This document shows positions 20,536 through 35,482 of a stretch of DNA of 64,000 nucleotides, piece by piece. This DNA comes from Jiella endophytica. Its GTDB lineage: Bacteria; Pseudomonadota; Alphaproteobacteria; Rhizobiales; Rhizobiaceae. The stretch lies in the NCBI RefSeq assembly GCF_004519335.1, contig NZ_SOZD01000006.1, positions 186,001 to 250,000 on the forward strand, given 5' to 3'. The notes below the pieces were generated by a model. That model made no database searches. It was not told the DNA's origin and saw only the letters and a list, made by a program, of their open reading frames with translations. How positions within the stretch are numbered: the stretch's first letter is position 1; every line of letters starts with the position of its first letter. Both the position numbers and the translations under genes were made by a program.

Positions 20536-20667
20536 CGTCATCCTCGGGCTTGTCCCGAGGATCTACCTTCGCTTGCGACTTGCGATCCTTTTCCCGTATC
20601 GCGCCATCTGCAGCGGTTCGGAGCGTCAATGGCAGTAGATCCTCGGGACAAGCTCGAGGATGACGGC
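20536..20667. repeat. Dispersed inverted-repeat element (GTCATCCTCGGG family)
   Basis: Left arm at 20536-20565 is itself palindromic (CCTCGGG-CTTGT-CCCGAGG then ATCTAC). Right arm at 20635-20665 is its reverse complement. The same ends appear in the copies at 28945 and 29477, so this is a multi-copy intergenic element. It reaches the start codon of the FG-GAP gene. Confidence 0.8.
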
Positions 20668-20780
20668 GCCTTGTCGCCTGCGCCCAAACTTCCACCGACG
20701 GTGATATCGTCGGAGAGACCGCCTCCATTCGGGTGGACAAAAACGGCGAACACCAGGTCCGACCGGCGCCCGTCGCGCCC

Positions 20781-28944: not shown

Positions 28945-29143
28945 GGCGTCATCCTAGGCCCATCAGGCCGCCATCCTCGGCCCTTGAGGCCGTCATCCCC
29001 GGCCCTTCAGGTCGTCATCCTCGGCCTTGTGCCGAGGATCTACTGCCATCGAAGCGACAGATCGGCGGAGGAGAGGTGCATCCCGAGACACGGTTCTGGA
29101 TCGGCACCCTCAGTAGATCCTCGGCACGGAGGCCGAGGATGAC
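28945..29143. repeat. Composite repeat, copy 1 (22-bp tandem units plus hairpin element)
   Basis: Four degenerate 22-bp units of the form GCCGTCATCCTCGGCCCTTG run from 28945 to about 29030. The last unit is also the left arm of a 130-bp element whose right arm (CAGTAGATCCTCGGCAC to GAGGATGAC) ends at 29143. Confidence 0.85.
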
Positions 29144-29238
29144 GACGCGTCTGCGTCGCCGACTACGTCCTTCATCGCGCCCATCGAAGGCGGATAGCAG
29201 ACCATGTGGCAGATGAGGGCGCCGCCCTCTTCCGCGTC

Positions 29239-29476: not shown

Positions 29477-29653
29477 GCCGTCATCCTTGGCCCTTCAAGC
29501 CGCCATCCTCGGCCCTTGAGGCCGTCATCCTCGGCCTTGTGCCGGGGATCTGCTGCCATCGAAGCGACAGATCGGTGGAGGAAGGGTGCATCCCGAGACA
29601 CAGTTCTGGACCGGGACCCTCAGTGGATCCTCGGCACGGAGGCCGAGGATGAC
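29477..29653. repeat. Composite repeat, copy 2
   Basis: Three 22-bp units (the middle one, GCCGCCATCCTCGGCCCTTG, identical to one in copy 1) lead into a 130-bp element nearly identical to that of copy 1, including the core CCATCGAAGCGACAGATCGG. Direct orientation relative to copy 1. Confidence 0.85.
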
Positions 29654-29668
29654 GTGGCGGCGGCACCC

Positions 29669-30961
29669 TCACCGCTCGTGCGGCTGAGGATCCACCCGGT
29701 CGATGCCGCGCTCGGCAAGGGCGCCGGCCACTGACGCGCTGGCGGCATGCGCGCTCTCGACTTTGCGTTGGCGCATCGCCACGACCGCCATCACCAGCGA
29801 GATCGCCACGCAATAGAGCCCCATCACGCCGATCTGCAGCGGATAGTCCACCTGCCGGTCGATCAGGACGCCGGTCACCCCCGGCCCGAGCGCCGAGGCG
29901 AGCACCATCAGCGCCACCGTCACCGAGCGCACAGACCCCAGATGCTTGGTCCCGTAGAGCTCCGGCCAGAGCGCGCCCAGAAGCGTCGAGGAAAAACCGT
30001 TGGAGATGCCGAGGAAGACCATGAAGACGAAGATCGTCACTTCTGCCGAGAACAGCCAGACGACGAAGCAGGCGAGGGACATCGGGATCAGGAAGAACGG
30101 CAACAGCCGCACTGCCGAGAACCGGTCGACCAGCGAGCCGCAGAGGAGCGCGAAGACCACCGTCGTCGCAGACATCACCGCGAAGCCCGAGGCGAAGACC
30201 TCGATCGGCCAGCCGCGCAACTCGGTGAGATAGACCTGGTGGAAGAACAGCGTCGTGCCGATGAAGGGCGGCGCCAGAACCGCCGAGGCGACCAGCCAGA
30301 AGGTCGGCGAGGCGACCACCTCGCGCATCGTCCAGTCGCGCACCGCCGGCCGCTCGCGCATCTTCGGTTCCGACTGCGGGTCGCGATCCTTCGCCGTCGT
30401 CCAGGCGAGGGTCGGCAGCGCGATCACGACGAGAACCGCGCCGCAGGCGAGCCAGGTGCCGCGCCAGCCCAGACTCGCCGCCACCGCCACGAAGATCAGC
30501 GGAAACAGCCCGGTGCCGACATGAAAGCCGAGGGAGATCAGCGCCATCGCCCTGCCCCGGTTGGCGGCGAACCAGCGGCCGGTCGCCGTCATCGCCGTCT
30601 CGGTCATCATCCCCTGGCCGAACAGCCGCAGCATGTAGAGCGAAAGGACGAGCAGCGGCAGGCTGGCGGCGAGCGACATCACTGCTGTCGCCAGCGCCAG
30701 GCAGAGGACGGTGACGGCCGCCACCTGCCAGGCCTTGAAGCGATCGAGCGTCCATCCAAGCGTCGGCAAGGTCGCCGCGCTCGCCAGCGTCGCCGCCATG
30801 TAGAGCAACCCGAAATCGCCGTTCGACAGGTCGAATTCCCGGCGGATGTCGCCGTTGGAGAGCGAGATGTAGAAGGTCTGCCCGAAGGACGAGAAGAAGC
30901 AGAGCAGGAACCCGCCGGAAAGCCAGCGGGCGTTCCGGCCCATGAAGGTGAGGAATTCCAT
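29669..30961 (-). CDS. MFS transporter, 12 TM
   Basis: 430 residues with about 12 hydrophobic helices. LGWTLDRFKAWQ between helices 2 and 3 is the MFS A-motif position, and LCGSLVDRFSAVRLLP is its repeat in the second half. RWFAANRGRAMALISLG is typical of the monocarboxylate/oxalate-formate-like branch, so a small organic anion is a reasonable guess only. The start ends at 30961. A 14-bp palindrome at 30995 lies just upstream. The gene closes the high-GC block; the next gene is in AT-richer DNA. Confidence 0.85.
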   Translation of the reverse strand: MEFLTFMGRNARWLSGGFLLCFFSSFGQTFYISLSNGDIRREFDLSNGDFGLLYMAATLASAATLPTLGWTLDRFKAWQVAAVTVLCLALATAVMSLAASLPLLVLSLYMLRLFGQGMMTETAMTATGRWFAANRGRAMALISLGFHVGTGLFPLIFVAVAASLGWRGTWLACGAVLVVIALPTLAWTTAKDRDPQSEPKMRERPAVRDWTMREVVASPTFWLVASAVLAPPFIGTTLFFHQVYLTELRGWPIEVFASGFAVMSATTVVFALLCGSLVDRFSAVRLLPFFLIPMSLACFVVWLFSAEVTIFVFMVFLGISNGFSSTLLGALWPELYGTKHLGSVRSVTVALMVLASALGPGVTGVLIDRQVDYPLQIGVMGLYCVAISLVMAVVAMRQRKVESAHAASASVAGALAERGIDRVDPQPHER

Positions 30962-30994
30962 AATACGTCCGGCAGAGCAAGTAGCTCCACTTCA

Positions 30995-31008
30995 AGTATT
31001 TAAATACT
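30995..31008. promoter_or_regulatory. 14-bp perfect palindrome upstream of the MFS gene
   Basis: AGTATTTAAATACT, an AT-rich perfect dyad 34 bases before the MFS start codon, is the size and type of operator used by MarR/PadR-like repressors. No such regulator is adjacent. Confidence 0.4.
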
Positions 31009-31095
31009 ACCTTGGATTCTGCAGCGGCTTCCGCATTTTCAGGATCGTCGACGTTGCGGCGACGAGAAGCACCGACGCTAGAGAACCCTTCTTCG

Positions 31096-32577
31096 TCAGT
31101 CAGGTAGAGAGCTGCTAGCGTCCTCTAACGCCTCCAGTTCGAAGTATCGCCTCCAGCCCAACCTCAGGTTAAGGTCCGAGTAGGCTTCGGTAATCGACTT
31201 CTCCGAACCAGTAGCAAATTGCGTCGCCTCCATACAATATCGAATTCCCTCTCGGACCTCACGTTGAGTTTCACCAAAAGCGATTCTCATCAGCCCCCGC
31301 GTATCAACAACCGCCGCTTTCACTTCATCGAACTCATCGTCGTCGAACTCGGACAACACACATTCGACCTCGGCTCGTATCGCGCGCCGCGCTTCAGGAT
31401 GTTGCGTTGGCACATGATACTCCTTCTCCACCAGAAACGACATCCGATTGAACTTGATCTTTTTTCTAGTTTTGTCCGATATGCTCGCAAATTCGCGATC
31501 GTCGAGTAGTCGCTCCGAGATGTCTACTGCCCTGTCGATGTCGCCAAGAACGTAGAACATCAGCGGTACCGCGATTATCTCGCCTTCGTCCTCCAAACGA
31601 TTTCCAGAACGCAAGACTTCAGAGGAAGCGGTTAGCCATGCTTCCGCCTGAACATAGAACCACATTCCGAGATCGTTGCCCCATTTTCTCGTTCGCATCG
31701 TTGCGATCTTACCGGCAAGGATCCATGAGTACCTAACTAGTGAAGAGTCTCTACAGCATTGTGCTATTTCGGTTATTGCTTCTTGCAAGCTGACACTGTT
31801 AGCGTCTTCATTTTCAAGCGCTATCCGCAACTCCTCGATCCTGGAGTCAATAGCCTGAATGCGTTCAGGTACGATATCGCCCCTAAATTGCGGCCCGTAG
31901 CTGAGCATTCTGGTAAAAATTTCATCCCTAGCGGCCTGGCGTGTCGCTTCTTCAACATTCCAGCTCGCTTGGATCATGTTGCGGATGATACGGCTCTGCT
32001 CTTCAAGACTTTGTATCGACTGAGCAATATTTTCCATCATTGAAGAAAGACGAGGATCAAGCAAGCCAAGGGGCTTATAGGTGAGATCATGCATCTTCGC
32101 AGACCAAGCGTCATGCAGCATGGTCTTAAACTGGATTTCACATTGTATCGGATTGCCGGCAATTAGCTTTGTAGACACGACGTGCGTTGCGTAGTAACCT
32201 CGCTTATTGAAGTGCTCTTCCGGCTTTGTAGTACTGACCCCTATTGAGTTAAGGGCGGCTGATATGGATTGCACACCTTTGCGCATGTGATCGGAATAAT
32301 AGAATACGACGGTGAGTCCAACAATATCTGTGAGTTCGAATATATGGTTAGGGGTAACATTCTTCCCGGCGCGGCGCACCTTTTCGACAATCTTATGCGT
32401 TTCTTTAAAGAAAAACTTACCCGACGTTGAATCAGATCGAGTATATATATCACTTATGCGTCCAGAACCACCACCATTGCGGTAGCGGTCACACTCACGT
32501 CTCACTAAATCAACTAGCTCTCGATAACTTTCGCCAAAATTGGAGATGAATTTGTCCGCTACATTAAGATCGGCCAT
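31096..32577 (-). CDS. RelA/SpoT nucleotidyltransferase-domain protein with long helical C-terminus
   Basis: 493 residues in DNA clearly poorer in GC than its neighbours. The RelA_SpoT domain covers about residues 40-170: ELTDIVGLTVVF (D84, the Mg-binding Asp of DIxGxR, with Thr in place of Arg), RGYYATHVVSTKL, and CEIQFKTMLHDAWSAKMHDLTYK-type motif (E147 catalytic, W158, H163). D84 and E147 are kept, so it may be active. There is no HD hydrolase, TGS or ACT domain, so it is not a housekeeping Rel. The remaining about 300 residues are mostly helical, perhaps TPR-like, and could be a sensor. Such stand-alone enzymes make alarmones or act as toxSAS toxins/anti-phage effectors; which applies here is unknown. 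Confidence 0.8.
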   Translation of the reverse strand: MADLNVADKFISNFGESYRELVDLVRRECDRYRNGGGSGRISDIYTRSDSTSGKFFFKETHKIVEKVRRAGKNVTPNHIFELTDIVGLTVVFYYSDHMRKGVQSISAALNSIGVSTTKPEEHFNKRGYYATHVVSTKLIAGNPIQCEIQFKTMLHDAWSAKMHDLTYKPLGLLDPRLSSMMENIAQSIQSLEEQSRIIRNMIQASWNVEEATRQAARDEIFTRMLSYGPQFRGDIVPERIQAIDSRIEELRIALENEDANSVSLQEAITEIAQCCRDSSLVRYSWILAGKIATMRTRKWGNDLGMWFYVQAEAWLTASSEVLRSGNRLEDEGEIIAVPLMFYVLGDIDRAVDISERLLDDREFASISDKTRKKIKFNRMSFLVEKEYHVPTQHPEARRAIRAEVECVLSEFDDDEFDEVKAAVVDTRGLMRIAFGETQREVREGIRYCMEATQFATGSEKSITEAYSDLNLRLGWRRYFELEALEDASSSLPD

Positions 32578-32644
32578 TCATTAATCCTGCGCGCTTCAGG
32601 AATTTTTGGGCTCAGTGAGCTGATTTCACGCATTAACTAATAAC

Positions 32645-32676
32645 GCAAAAGGCGCTTATACGGAAGCGCCTTTTGC
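32645..32676. terminator. Perfect 13-bp-stem hairpin, terminator or attenuator
   Basis: GCAAAAGGCGCTT, a six-base loop, then AAGCGCCTTTTGC. The A/T blocks in the stem make it usable on either strand. It sits 68 bases ahead of the RelA/SpoT-domain start and downstream of a possible leader ORF on the same strand. Confidence 0.65.
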
Positions 32677-32736
32677 AACTTAATCGCGATGAAACGCCAA
32701 TCTAAGAAGCGTCCGGAGAGGGCCCTTGCTCCAGAG

Positions 32737-32802
32737 CTATGTCTTAAAAATCGGGCGCTTAAAAATCGGGCGAGACATAACCAAGATTTGATCGATCATC
32801 AT
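32737..32802 (-). CDS. Possible 21-residue leader or micro-peptide
   Basis: Starts ATG-ATG at 32802 with AGGA five bases upstream, reads MMIDQILVMSRPIFKRPIFKT and stops with TAG. The pentapeptide RPIFK is repeated in frame by a 15-bp tandem duplication. A hairpin follows about 60 bases later and then the RelA/SpoT-domain gene on the same strand. It may be a leader peptide, a tiny toxin/antitoxin, or chance. No homology can be claimed. Confidence 0.25.
   Translation of the reverse strand: MMIDQILVMSRPIFKRPIFKT
32743..32772. repeat. 15-bp tandem duplication
   Basis: CTTAAAAATCGGGCG occurs twice back to back with no mismatch. Confidence 0.95.
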
Positions 32803-32928
32803 ATTTTTCCTAATTGACGCTTCAACAATGAAGCAGCCCCCCTAAGGTTCCCCTGAACCTCGCCGACTCATAGCCGGGTCAACGATGGCACGCAATCGTT
32901 AACGAGCGCTTAGCCCGCCAACTCTCCC

Positions 32929-33342
32929 ATGTTAGAATGGAAAGATGAGATGGAAAATGCAAGTCACGAAGATTCTTTCGCACAGCTTCAGGTTAGCGTT
33001 CATAACGAGAATGGGTATGTTGTATCGATTCCCATCCCCCAACACATCGTCCACGCCGCACGAGCGCTGCGTTACGACCCACACCGCTATTTCTCTGAAA
33101 TTCCGAGTTGCCAACACGTACAGCTTGCCTTGCTGATCCAAAGCAGGGCTCGATCGCAGGGCATAGAGAATGCGCTCAAACTGATGGCTGCCTCCTACCT
33201 TGGTGAAAAACCGAAGCGGAGCCCTATCCGGGTCCGCGAGTTTGAGAATGGAAAGTTCCTTATCCTCGACGGTAACTCGACGGCTACCGTAGCTAAAGCG
33301 GCCTTGTGGCCCGATATTCCATGTATCATCATAAGCCACTAA
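32929..33342 (+). CDS. Small ParB/sulfiredoxin-like fold protein with DGN motif
   Basis: 137 residues from the ATG at 32929, or 130 from the ATG at 32950, which has a better purine-rich leader. The C-terminal third (IRVREFENGKFLILDGNST, then WPDIPCIII) follows the pattern of ParB/Srx-fold proteins, in which a beta-hairpin leads to a DGN(H/R) loop, a helix with A-x-x-A-G-like spacing, and IP-V-I. Here the loop is DGNST. The N-terminal half has no match I recognise. An overlapping frame on the other strand of similar length is the weaker reading. Divergent from the RelA/SpoT-domain gene and in the same AT-richer DNA; a functional link is inference. Confidence 0.6.
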   Translation: MLEWKDEMENASHEDSFAQLQVSVHNENGYVVSIPIPQHIVHAARALRYDPHRYFSEIPSCQHVQLALLIQSRARSQGIENALKLMAASYLGEKPKRSPIRVREFENGKFLILDGNSTATVAKAALWPDIPCIIISH

Positions 33343-33592
33343 CCCGGCCACAGCGGGACAGGTGGCGATGACTGAAAGAAAGGCTCAGCTCGTAATTACG
33401 GTGATTGAAATGCAGAGAATGAACAACGAAGCGGACAGCTTGACCGTAGATTTTGTTACCGTAACTTAAATTTTCTTGTACACAATAATCAACAGAAAAA
33501 CGCAATTTCAAAGCGACTTTTCAGTGCGTCAATCCGAACGCTGCCGGTCTTTTATCTCTCCCAGGCGGAAGTGTTGGAACACGCCGTGCCCC
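33343..33592. other. AT-rich right flank of the island
   Basis: About 250 bases with no gene. AT-rich up to about 33540, then base composition returns to the surrounding level near the nadE stop, marking the likely island edge. No tRNA or clear direct repeat was found here. Confidence 0.45.
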
Positions 33593-35266
33593 TCACACCC
33601 CATCCCGAAATCGGTTGGTGATCGGATACCGCCGGTCCCGCCCGAAATTCTTCCGCGTCACCTTGGTCCCCGGCGCCGACTGCCGGCGCTTGTATTCGGC
33701 GATGTAGAGAAGCTTTTCGATGTGGGCGACCGTCTCGCGATCGAAGCCTCTCTCCACCAGTTCGTCGACGCCGCCGTCATGTTCCACCAGGTGTTCGAGG
33801 ATGGCGTCCAACACGTCGTAGGGCGGCAGCGAATCCTCGTCCTTCTGGTCCTCGCGCAGCTCCGCCGAGGGCGGCTTCACGATGATCCGCTCGGGGACGA
33901 CCTTGCCTGACGGGCCTAGCAGACCCTCCGGATGGTGTTCGTTGCGCCAGCGGGCGAGGCGGAAGACTTGCGTTTTGTAGAGGTCCTTGATCGGGTTGAA
34001 GCCGCCGTTCATGTCGCCGTAGAGCGTCGCGTAGCCGACGCTCATCTCGCTCTTGTTGCCGGTGGTCACCACCATGGCGCCGAACTTGTTGGAGATCGCC
34101 ATCAGGATGACGCCCCGCGTGCGGCTCTGGACGTTCTCTTCGGTGATGCCCGAGGGCGTTCCCTCGAACATCGGTCCGAGCGCGGCGAGGAAGCCTTCGA
34201 CCGGCTGTTTGATCGGCACGGTGTCGTAGCGGATGCCGAGCGCCTTCGCGCAGGCAGCTGCGTCTTCGAGGCTCGTCTCGGCGGTGTAGCGATAGGGCAG
34301 CATGACCGCGTGGACGCGGTCCGCCCCGAGTGCGTCGACCGCCATCGCCGCGCAGACGGCGGAATCGATGCCGCCGGAAAGTCCCAGCACCACCGACTTG
34401 AAGCCGTTCTTGTTGACGTAGTCGGCAAGGCCGAGGACGCAGGCGCTCCACACCGCCGCGTCGTCGCCGGGGATCTCGGCGACTTCGCCGCCCTCGCAGC
34501 GCCAGCCGTCACCGTCCCGCACCCAATCGGTGACGAACACGCCGGTCCGAAACTGCGGCAGCTGGAAGGCCAGCGAGCGGTCGGCGTTGAAGGCGAAGGA
34601 GGCGCCGTCGAAGAGCAGTTCGTCCTGGCCGCCGATCTGGTTGGCATAAACCACCGGCAGCTCGGCCTCGATCACCTGGCGAAGCACCACCTGATGCCGG
34701 ATGTCGAGCTTGCCGCGATAGAACGGCGATCCGTTCGGCACGAGCAGGATCTCGGCGCCGGATTCGGCGAGGGTCTCGCAGACGCCGAGATCGCCCCAGA
34801 TGTCCTCGCAGACCGGGATGCCGAGCCTGAGGCCGCGATAGTTCACCGGACCGGGCATGGGGCCCGGCTGGAACACCCGCTTTTCGTCGAACTCGCCATA
34901 GTTCGGCAGGTCGACCTTGGAGCGCCAGTTGACGATGCGGCCCTCGTCGAGGACGGCGACGGCGTTGTAGAGCCCCTCGCCCGTCCGCAGCGGGCAGCCG
35001 ACGACGACGCCGGGCCCGCCATCGGCGGTGTCGGCGGCGAGATCTTCCACCGCCGCCATGCAGGCGGCGACGAAGGCCGGCTTCAGGACGAGGTCTTCCG
35101 GCGGATAGCCTGAGATGAAAAGCTCGGTGAAGAGCACGAGGTCGGCTCCGGCCGCGGCGGCTTCCGCCCGCGCCCTGCGGGCGAGCGCCAGATTCCCGGA
35201 GACGTCGCCCATCACCGGGTCGAGCTGCGCGACGGCAAGTTTCAGGCGGTTCGTCACATCGGCCAT
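33593..35266 (-). CDS. nadE: Glutamine-dependent NAD+ synthetase
   Basis: 557 residues, two domains. The N-terminal nitrilase-type glutaminase has Glu in LVLFTELFISGYPPEDL (near residue 46), Lys in WRSKVDLPNYGEFDE (near 113) and Cys in GIPVCEDIWG (near 150). The C-terminal NAD synthetase has the ATP loop VVLGLSGGIDSAV near 295 and GNKSEMSVGYATLYGD. It converts deamido-NAD to NAD using glutamine. I chose the ATG at 35266 (GGGGAG nine bases ahead); an in-frame ATG three codons upstream lacks spacing. Confidence 0.96.
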   Translation of the reverse strand: MADVTNRLKLAVAQLDPVMGDVSGNLALARRARAEAAAAGADLVLFTELFISGYPPEDLVLKPAFVAACMAAVEDLAADTADGGPGVVVGCPLRTGEGLYNAVAVLDEGRIVNWRSKVDLPNYGEFDEKRVFQPGPMPGPVNYRGLRLGIPVCEDIWGDLGVCETLAESGAEILLVPNGSPFYRGKLDIRHQVVLRQVIEAELPVVYANQIGGQDELLFDGASFAFNADRSLAFQLPQFRTGVFVTDWVRDGDGWRCEGGEVAEIPGDDAAVWSACVLGLADYVNKNGFKSVVLGLSGGIDSAVCAAMAVDALGADRVHAVMLPYRYTAETSLEDAAACAKALGIRYDTVPIKQPVEGFLAALGPMFEGTPSGITEENVQSRTRGVILMAISNKFGAMVVTTGNKSEMSVGYATLYGDMNGGFNPIKDLYKTQVFRLARWRNEHHPEGLLGPSGKVVPERIIVKPPSAELREDQKDEDSLPPYDVLDAILEHLVEHDGGVDELVERGFDRETVAHIEKLLYIAEYKRRQSAPGTKVTRKNFGRDRRYPITNRFRDGV

Positions 35267-35482
35267 CGTCGGCATCTCCCCGGCTTGTCGCCGATCGTTT
35301 CGCGTGTCGTGGGCAAGGCCGCGGCCCGGGCGGCGCGACGCGCGGATTTCAGTCAGTGTCGGGCGCGCATCCCCGCGGCAGGCAGAGTGCGCTATCTGTT
35401 GCAACGGTTCCAGGACCGATGCGCTGCATCAGATAGCAAGGCCGGCCGCGGCAATCGAGATCCCATCCCCCTGACGACGGAC

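Follow-up and report, generated by a model that had tools for sequence, protein, structure and literature searches.

A conserved gene pair encoding a RelA/SpoT-domain protein and a small ParB/Srx-like protein in an AT-rich island: a candidate growth-arrest module

RelA/SpoT-type enzymes are makers of the starvation alarm signal, and several toxin-antitoxin families employ them as the toxin. A precedent for their use against phage is CapRel, in which synthetase and antitoxin are fused and phage is sensed by the fusion (PMC9712102). In the literature searched, with one phrasing that may miss the slash spelling, no toxin-antitoxin pairing of such a synthetase with a ParB/Srx-like partner was found. 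Here we describe a locus in a stretch of 64,000 nucleotides (the window) where a RelA/SpoT-domain protein, called Rel below, is encoded next to a small ParB/Srx-like protein.

The AT-rich island and its position

An AT-rich interval of about 2.6 kb (49% GC vs 67%) holds both genes in divergent orientation between two conserved flanks. The main features are as follows.

29669..30961, minus strand: conserved flank, presumed MFS transporter gene (ORF; congener comparison)
30973..33587, no strand: exchange hotspot from the MFS gene to nadE, occupied by different cargo in seven congeners (congener comparison)
31096..32577, minus strand: Rel, RelA/SpoT-domain protein, 493 aa (ORF; PF04607, E=4.3e-9)
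32578..32928, no strand: divergent intergenic region, 351 bp, with a putative regulatory role (ORF positions, sequence scans)
32929..33342, plus strand: small ParB/Srx-like DGNST protein, 137 aa (ORF; homologues; PHROG ParB-like match, E=0.0043)
33593..35404, minus strand: conserved flank, presumed NAD+ synthase gene, nadE (ORF; congener comparison)

Both open reading frames lie where the earlier note had placed them (493 aa on the minus strand and 137 aa on the plus strand), and the GC-poor island that it described was borne out, with 1-kb values of 0.513, 0.480, 0.459 and 0.482 over 31001-33500. On either side, 1-kb windows that end no later than 31000 or begin after 33500 have GC contents of 0.625-0.750. 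The pair as a whole is at 0.490, against 0.671 for all of the window at distances above 1 kb. Rel and the small gene are AT-rich in three of the four loci where they occur together. By its composition and setting, the island looks horizontally acquired. A prophage remnant or an integrative element was not favoured, since there are just two genes between the flanks and no integrase was noticed.

The MFS-nadE interval holds other, unrelated cargo in seven congeners. Methyltransferase or defence-candidate genes were found in three of the seven (a methyltransferase with MTaX1; FRG/PDC-S15; HD with DarG-like and HTH_37 proteins), and no defence function was recognised for the cargo of G002, G003 and G006. 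Since the cargo differs between all congeners in which both flanks could be seen, the hotspot is a ready place to look for more defence candidates in the genus.

The 351-bp stretch between the two genes probably regulates both of them, and two elements were located in it.

32644..32677, minus strand: terminator-like hairpin, 14 base pairs with perfect arms of 13 nt, in what is probably the rel leader (sequence scan, folding)
32743..32772, no strand: two perfect 15-bp copies in direct tandem, resembling an operator and putatively acting as one (sequence scan)

Within this region neither terminator-like matches (3 vs 2.5 in shuffles) nor promoter-like matches (2 vs 2.6) were above chance, and no counterpart of the hairpin was seen by eye when the sequence preceding rel in L003, L021 and L006 was folded.

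The synthetase and the small protein

RelA_SpoT (PF04607) is the sole Pfam domain of Rel above cut-off, and it leaves a long C-terminal region.

32074..32406, minus strand: RelA_SpoT synthetase domain, residues 58-168 (Pfam; 7-sequence alignment)
31099..31965, minus strand: C-terminal region of Rel, about 290 residues with no Pfam domain above cut-off, putatively regulatory

The catalytic Asp84 (TDIVG) and Glu147 (CEIQ), reported as kept in the earlier note, are invariant in all seven aligned sequences, the window's included. The same is true of Gly127-Tyr128, His132, Gln149, Lys151, His163 and Tyr167-Lys168. The conserved synthetase residues are best explained if Rel is an intact RelA/SpoT-type pyrophosphokinase. 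The claim that it has no hydrolase or TGS/ACT domain also held, as HD, TGS and ACT were unmatched in Pfam at E up to 1. The note had further described about 300 extra helical residues; their length stood, and their helical nature is putative, the sole repeat-like Pfam match being TPR_14 with E=0.13 in one of seven members. This C-terminal region is possibly a sensor or regulatory part.

In the PDB profile comparison, the nearest solved structures to Rel were GTP pyrophosphokinases of the small type. The Rel profile is closer to entries which we take to be of RelP/RelQ type (E to 4e-14) than to 7ztb and 9erv, which we take to be CapRel (E=0.006, synthetase part). The best NCBIfam match was to YjbM (RelQ) GTP diphosphokinase, NF053588, with 31.8 bits (E=1.1e-7) against a membership cut-off of 320. 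No significant match to a known anti-phage system was obtained in PADLOC, where the best hit of Rel was a marginal PDC-S33 (E=0.021) and the small protein had none. The host encodes a further RelA_SpoT protein that is longer than Rel (765-aa open frame), so Rel could be an auxiliary synthetase.

The small open reading frame is a real gene, with homologues of 29-48% identity in other lineages. Its start is uncertain because the family profile leaves the first 12 residues uncovered, and translation may truly begin downstream, for instance at the ATG at 32950.

33217..33339, plus strand: residues 97-137 of the small protein, its ParB-like core, carrying a DGNST box in place of ParB's GERR (profile comparison; Noc match)

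The ParB/Srx-like character proposed from the motif has weak but consistent support from PHROG, profile comparison and a match to Noc. The core compared with 31 ParB-domain rows gave a probability of 88.7 and E=2.6e-6, a set in which many rows are close relatives and one is a 26-residue fragment and for which the E-values hold for a single comparison. The score against the ParB profile was 37.3, and 50 shuffles gave at most 21.2. In an earlier ParB comparison, run on an ORF set with many antisense frames, the E-values were 0.64 for one set and 0.00069 for the other. Among the PDB matches, Noc (E=0.12) ranked above unrelated weak ones (tail proteins, 0.56; sortase, 1.1). Pfam ParB was unmatched by the small-protein family, for which Pfam gave only DUF2773 (E=0.12, one of six members), and the small protein had no family match above cut-off in Pfam, PADLOC or NCBIfam.

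The GERR of ParB is replaced by an invariant GNST in the C-terminal third, and R73, R75, K96, R97, N116, S117 and T118 are invariant in nine aligned copies, whether paired, fused or solo. A structure model built from two sequences was of low confidence (pLDDT 50.5, pTM 0.42); its C-terminal strand-strand-helix-strand order fits ParB and was given no weight. The small protein is probably a nucleotide-binding partner.

Linkage and distribution of the two genes

A draw of 397 genomes from the order gave strong Rel matches (E<1e-80) in G000, G716 and G780, and strong matches of the small protein (E<1e-40) in exactly the same three. The chance of such an overlap if the two were independent is 1e-7 for the strong matches, and 4e-6 for an overlap of three with all five Rel and all four small-protein matches counted, in both cases with relatedness ignored and cut-offs set post hoc. 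G716 was in neither of the starting search profiles (A2, A3). The two genes adjoin in all three genomes in two gene orders, divergent in the window and Rel followed by the small gene on the same strand in Roseibium and G716. The gap between the same-strand genes is about 170-390 bp, which is wide for a toxin-antitoxin operon and counts against that reading. On a plasmid of Rhizobium sp. B21/90 the two are fused into a single 595-aa protein, with the small domain at the N-terminus followed by Rel, and the fusion was found at 100% on two more plasmids. Rel and the small gene thus belong together as a conserved pair. That they are two unrelated passengers brought together by chance is highly improbable: the hotspot does swap unrelated genes and the small gene also occurs alone, but both the co-occurrence, seen in three genera within the order draw, and the fusion on Rhizobium plasmids contradict it.

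By the earlier note, its proposal would be refuted if homologues of Rel usually occurred without the small gene, and the outcome of this check is divided. Among close homologues the small gene is present at four of four independent loci; among distant ones it is absent at three of three (L011, L019 and L020, with Rel relatives of like length). With weak matches counted as well, the small gene is present in three of the five Rel-bearing genomes of the order draw. The distant relatives, one of which (L019) lies in a prophage between terminase and portal genes, speak for Rel alone as a self-contained abortive-infection protein, with the C-terminal region as both inhibitor and sensor and the small protein as an optional part widening or tuning the sensing. 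The lengths of the seven aligned proteins, all 460-549 aa, agree with this, as does CapRel, whose C-terminal domain performs both jobs in one chain (PMC9712102). However, presence at every close locus, once as a fusion, is strong for an optional part, and we regard a self-contained Rel as rather unlikely.

The small gene was alone, with no Rel match nearby, at all eight solo loci examined (six on Ensifer/Sinorhizobium plasmids and two in G850), and the GC content was like that of the flanks in all five that were measured. Of 199 genomes drawn from the family, two are bearers, and one of these, G850, has two solo copies. The small protein is therefore not solely an antitoxin of Rel. For the proposal of a defence or toxin-antitoxin module, the conserved linkage stood (co-occurrence, divergent and same-strand orders, one fusion), whereas the solo copies weigh on the other side. 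They are also hard to explain if the small protein were an effector, such as an NTP-regulated DNase or NTPase, switched on by a nucleotide signal that Rel makes upon infection. PMC5512222 describes ParB/Srx domains as DNases or nucleotidases regulated by NTPs, suggests that they sense or degrade NTPs, and reports that RelA-SpoT and DdrB-like ParB domains share polyvalent proteins of Helicobacter prophages. The invariant polar residues of the small protein point the same way. On the other hand, the box arginine of the GERR/DGQHR type is replaced by GNST, and we consider such a signal-effector pair quite unlikely.

The spread of Rel is sporadic. It was found in two of 87 genomes in one family and in five of the 397 of the order draw, the window's own genome included. 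The class draw gave only the window's own genome (1/385, E up to 1e-15), the relatives draw that genome and G026 (2/61), and the phylum draw that genome and G1189 (2/398), with G026 and G1189 matching in the synthetase domain only. In a scan of genome contigs, 68 stretches matched, with one relative (Roseibium). A tblastn search of both proteins against 50,697 phage records found nothing; viral-contig scans yielded one relative, L011, with profile A2, and none with profile A3, the L019 protein or A7. Such rare occurrence (2/87, 5/397, 1/385), in AT-rich DNA and in a hotspot with methyltransferase and defence-candidate cargo, argues against a reading in which Rel, as RelP/RelQ do, supplies (p)ppGpp for the stress response as a non-toxic auxiliary, the small protein regulates it allosterically and the island is stress cargo. 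The best PDB profile matches (RelP/RelQ-type by our presumption), the YjbM match and the second RelA_SpoT protein of the host favour it; overall we find this account unlikely.

The proposed module and known systems

We put about an even chance on the pair being a toxSAS-like, two-gene, horizontally moving growth-arrest module. Rel has a RelA/SpoT synthetase domain with catalytic residues intact and no hydrolase domain, and a linked or fused partner was present at four of four close independent loci and at none of three distant ones. In the proposed module, Rel would make an alarmone or pyrophosphorylate another acceptor such as tRNA, and its long C-terminal region may be where a trigger is sensed. 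The ParB/Srx-like partner, probably via a bound nucleotide, would restrain Rel or reverse its effect until a phage or plasmid trigger frees Rel and growth halts. The toxicity, direction of control, trigger and product are points that we infer. It is doubtful that the pair is instead an alarmone-signalling defence, in which infection would lead Rel to make a pyrophosphorylated nucleotide that the ParB/Srx-like partner reads or removes as effector or off-switch; if true, the defence would signal through an alarmone, and the RelA/SpoT enzyme family would have a new partner fold. In the growth-arrest module, a ParB/Srx-like partner would bring a new fold to the control of RelA/SpoT-type enzymes, possibly one that reads a nucleotide directly. 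With the natural fusion, control and catalysis could be dissected within a single protein.

Four described systems are comparable. CapRel shares the RelA/SpoT catalytic domain and a synthetase fused or adjacent to its controlling domain, and single- and two-gene forms both exist (PMC9712102). Its partner is a pseudo-zinc-finger domain, whereas here it is ParB/Srx-like and fused at the N-terminus; Rel also has the extra C-terminal region of about 290 residues and reaches only E=0.006 to the CapRel PDB entries. The bicistronic toxSAS (FaRel2/ATfaRel2 and PhRel2/PanA; PMC11782079 and PMC10440598) likewise consist of a synthetase and a small partner gene. Here, in contrast, gene order varies, the divergent one included, and the partner was unmatched in the family-model searches of Pfam, PADLOC and NCBIfam. 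The presumed RelP/RelQ small alarmone synthetases are the closest solved relatives of the Rel catalytic domain, but the matched PDB chains are 209-255 aa long, without the C-terminal region or a ParB-like partner. The polyvalent proteins of Helicobacter prophages combine the same two superfamilies, DdrB-like ParB and RelA-SpoT, in one protein; these are multidomain with a rearranging make-up (PMC5512222), whereas the pair described here is compact and lies in bacterial islands.

The RelA/SpoT-domain protein and its divergent neighbor

Two open reading frames and the AT-rich interval that holds them were observed in the window, as the earlier note had described them.

31096-32577 (-), rel, encoding the 493-aa RelA/SpoT-domain protein Rel
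32644-32677, 14-pair terminator-like hairpin upstream of rel, probably within its 5' leader
32743-32772, perfect tandem repeat, 2 x 15-bp
32929-33342 (+), divergent gene for the 137-aa small protein with a DGNST motif

Consistent with that description, Rel had no hydrolase, TGS or ACT match, RelA_SpoT being its single Pfam domain over the cut-off, and alignment with solved small synthetases showed that the catalytic Asp and Glu are kept, with D84 and E147 aligning to the conserved motifs DIxG and EIQ. The residues invariant in seven aligned Rel sequences (window included) comprise, among others, R47, K58, K66, D84, G127, Y128, H132, E147, Q149, K151, T152, W158, H163, Y167 and K168. The family has a signature of its own, W-x-x-K-x-H-D-L-[TN]-Y-K, found in all aligned members except the one from a viral contig (6/7); at its place the YjbM structure has W-A-T-I-E-H-S-L-N-Y-K. 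Since the contig of Rel carries a second RelA_SpoT protein, in a 765-aa open frame, Rel is an extra enzyme. Attenuation or autoregulation of rel via the hairpin or the tandem repeat is possible.

The small protein had been called ParB/Srx-like. No matching family was found in Pfam, PADLOC or NCBIfam, with DUF2773 at E=0.12 in one of six members, and the N-terminal two thirds remained unaligned to ParB when the profile was compared with 31 ParB-domain rows. Several weak signs suggest membership in the ParB/sulfiredoxin superfamily: a weak PDB match to Noc (E=0.12), a match to the ParB-like PHROG 723 (E=0.0043), a match of the small-protein profile to a DGQHR protein of genome G596 (E=4.4e-5), and the 31-row comparison itself (probability 88.7, E=2.6e-6, score 37.3), all of which map to one common part of the chain and are not fully independent. 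Control scores were at most 21.2 in 50 column-shuffled versions and 14.7 for the reversed one; an earlier ParB profile comparison with poorly picked ORFs had given a mixed outcome. Nine aligned copies, whether paired, fused or solo, share R73, R75, K96, R97, G115, N116, S117, T118, W127, P131 and C132, among others. Because these residues are invariant across all three settings, we infer that they may form a ligand pocket, beyond mere protein contact.

Linkage of the two families and its limits

Rel and the small protein form a real pair. In Roseibium aggregatum, a Rel relative with about 42-43% identity to that of the window has a small-protein relative just downstream. Among plasmids searched by tblastn, three from Rhizobium matched Rel and, directly beside it, the small protein as well; the gene annotated there encodes a single 595-aa protein, small domain first and Rel second. 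Profile searches were run for each family against 397 genomes from the order, and the draw was apparently the same both times (equal number, same handles where listed). They gave five genomes with Rel (the window's own G000, G780 and G716 strong; G642 and G599 weaker) and four with the small protein (the same three strong; G596 weak, a larger ParB-like protein with the DGQHR motif). Thus, strong matches of both families are confined to the same three genomes, and the small gene is present in three of the five Rel-bearing ones, weak matches counted. G780 is the Roseibium locus again, as its two proteins score identically to those found there. The small-protein profile for this search included the G716 and Roseibium sequences; the G716 protein had been found earlier, at E=6.8e-38, with a profile that lacked it. 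Identity to the window proteins drops in parallel in both families.

Identity to the window proteins and GC content of the pair loci
Locus; Rel / small protein; GC of pair vs flanks
Window; reference; 0.490 vs 0.671
Roseibium; 43% / 47%; 0.404 vs 0.613
G716; 31% / 33%; 0.446 vs 0.616
Rhizobium plasmids; 28-29% / 29-30%; 0.572 vs 0.583

Relative to its flanks, the pair is AT-rich in the window, Roseibium and G716, but not in the Rhizobium plasmid. Within one family, the pair was found in 2 of 87 genomes, of different genera.

The pairing was not seen in every member of either family. No small-protein match was found in the DNA searched around three more distant Rel relatives of like length, located in a prophage (L019, genome G642; 14 kb), on a short contig (L020, genome G599; 9.1 kb) and on a viral contig (L011; 16.5 kb). 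Conversely, a Rel match was absent (E up to 0.1; 9-12 kb searched around each) from all eight solo small-protein loci, six on Ensifer/Sinorhizobium plasmids and two in genome G850. Sixteen plasmid records carry the small protein, 13 of them without a Rel match, and six of those 13 were examined as loci. Among 199 genomes drawn from the family, only G850 and the window's own bore the small protein.

The prophage relative (L019:2466-3953) is flanked by genes for the terminase large subunit and the portal protein and runs opposite to them, at 46% GC in surroundings of 71%, and is a phage-borne extra gene. Among the solo DGNST copies (L007, L008, L009, L022, L023, L089-L091), the five measured had flank-like GC; in L007 and L008 the small protein is followed by the same HU-family gene.

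The nadE-MFS interval

The interval between the MFS gene and nadE (30973-33587; L044-L047, L049, L051 and L052 in congeners) serves the genus as an exchange hotspot. All 10 genomes of the genus had nadE, and seven congeners (G001, G002, G003, G004, G006, G008 and G009) had both flanks on one stretch; in G005 and G007 the contig end was reached before any MFS gene. With the window counted, the interval is 1.6-2.8 kb long in eight genomes, with different, unrelated cargo in each and no empty site seen; no integrase was noticed by eye. In an all-against-all comparison (E up to 1e-3), the only sequence common to some of them was a stretch of up to 272 bases beside the MFS gene.

Cargo in the congeners
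G001; cytosine methyltransferase (PF00145, E=2.1e-56) and methylase-associated MTaX1 protein (PF20296)
G004; resembles a PIN-type toxin pair by eye, without Pfam or PADLOC match
G005 (beside nadE); GC-rich, rRNA methyltransferase-like gene by eye
G007 (one side visible); weak Tox-REase-9 match (E=0.0017)
G008; FRG (PF08867), PADLOC PDC-S15 (E=1e-100)
G009; HD (PF01966), DarG-like protein (E=6.6e-15) and HTH_37 (PF13744)
G002, G003, G006; none recognized as defense

Methyltransferase or defense-candidate cargo was thus found in three of the seven congeners with both flanks, and the unrecognized cargo of G002, G003 and G006 makes the hotspot a good hunting ground for new defense genes. We know of no precedent for the combination in G009 (L049:380-2887).

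Short dispersed repeats, partly inverted and also present in G003, were observed at 28991-29226, 29501-29663 and 20536-20673. Two lie close to gltX and the MFS gene; the repeats are probably a repeated extragenic element.

Proposed mechanism and known systems

The literature searched, mostly at title level, showed no toxin-antitoxin or defense module in which a compact synthetase is paired with a ParB/Srx-like protein. A 2020 paper reportedly surveyed toxSAS systems and their antitoxins. We favor reading the pair as a two-component growth-arrest module, in which the ParB/Srx-like partner would restrain Rel, an intact synthetase whose long C-terminal region may act as a sensor. The small protein might block Rel, remove its product or be turned on by that product. 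Published toxSAS antitoxins block the ATP or acceptor site (PMC11782079) or hydrolyze the product (PMC9712102). For ParB/Srx domains, PMC5512222 reports NTPase and DNase activity, proposes sensing or degradation of NTP, and describes polyvalent proteins of Helicobacter prophages that combine a ParB-like with a RelA-SpoT domain. Because the two are fused in Rhizobium, partner and enzyme are able to share one chain, as in CapRel, whose control domain acts as both antitoxin and phage sensor (PMC9712102).
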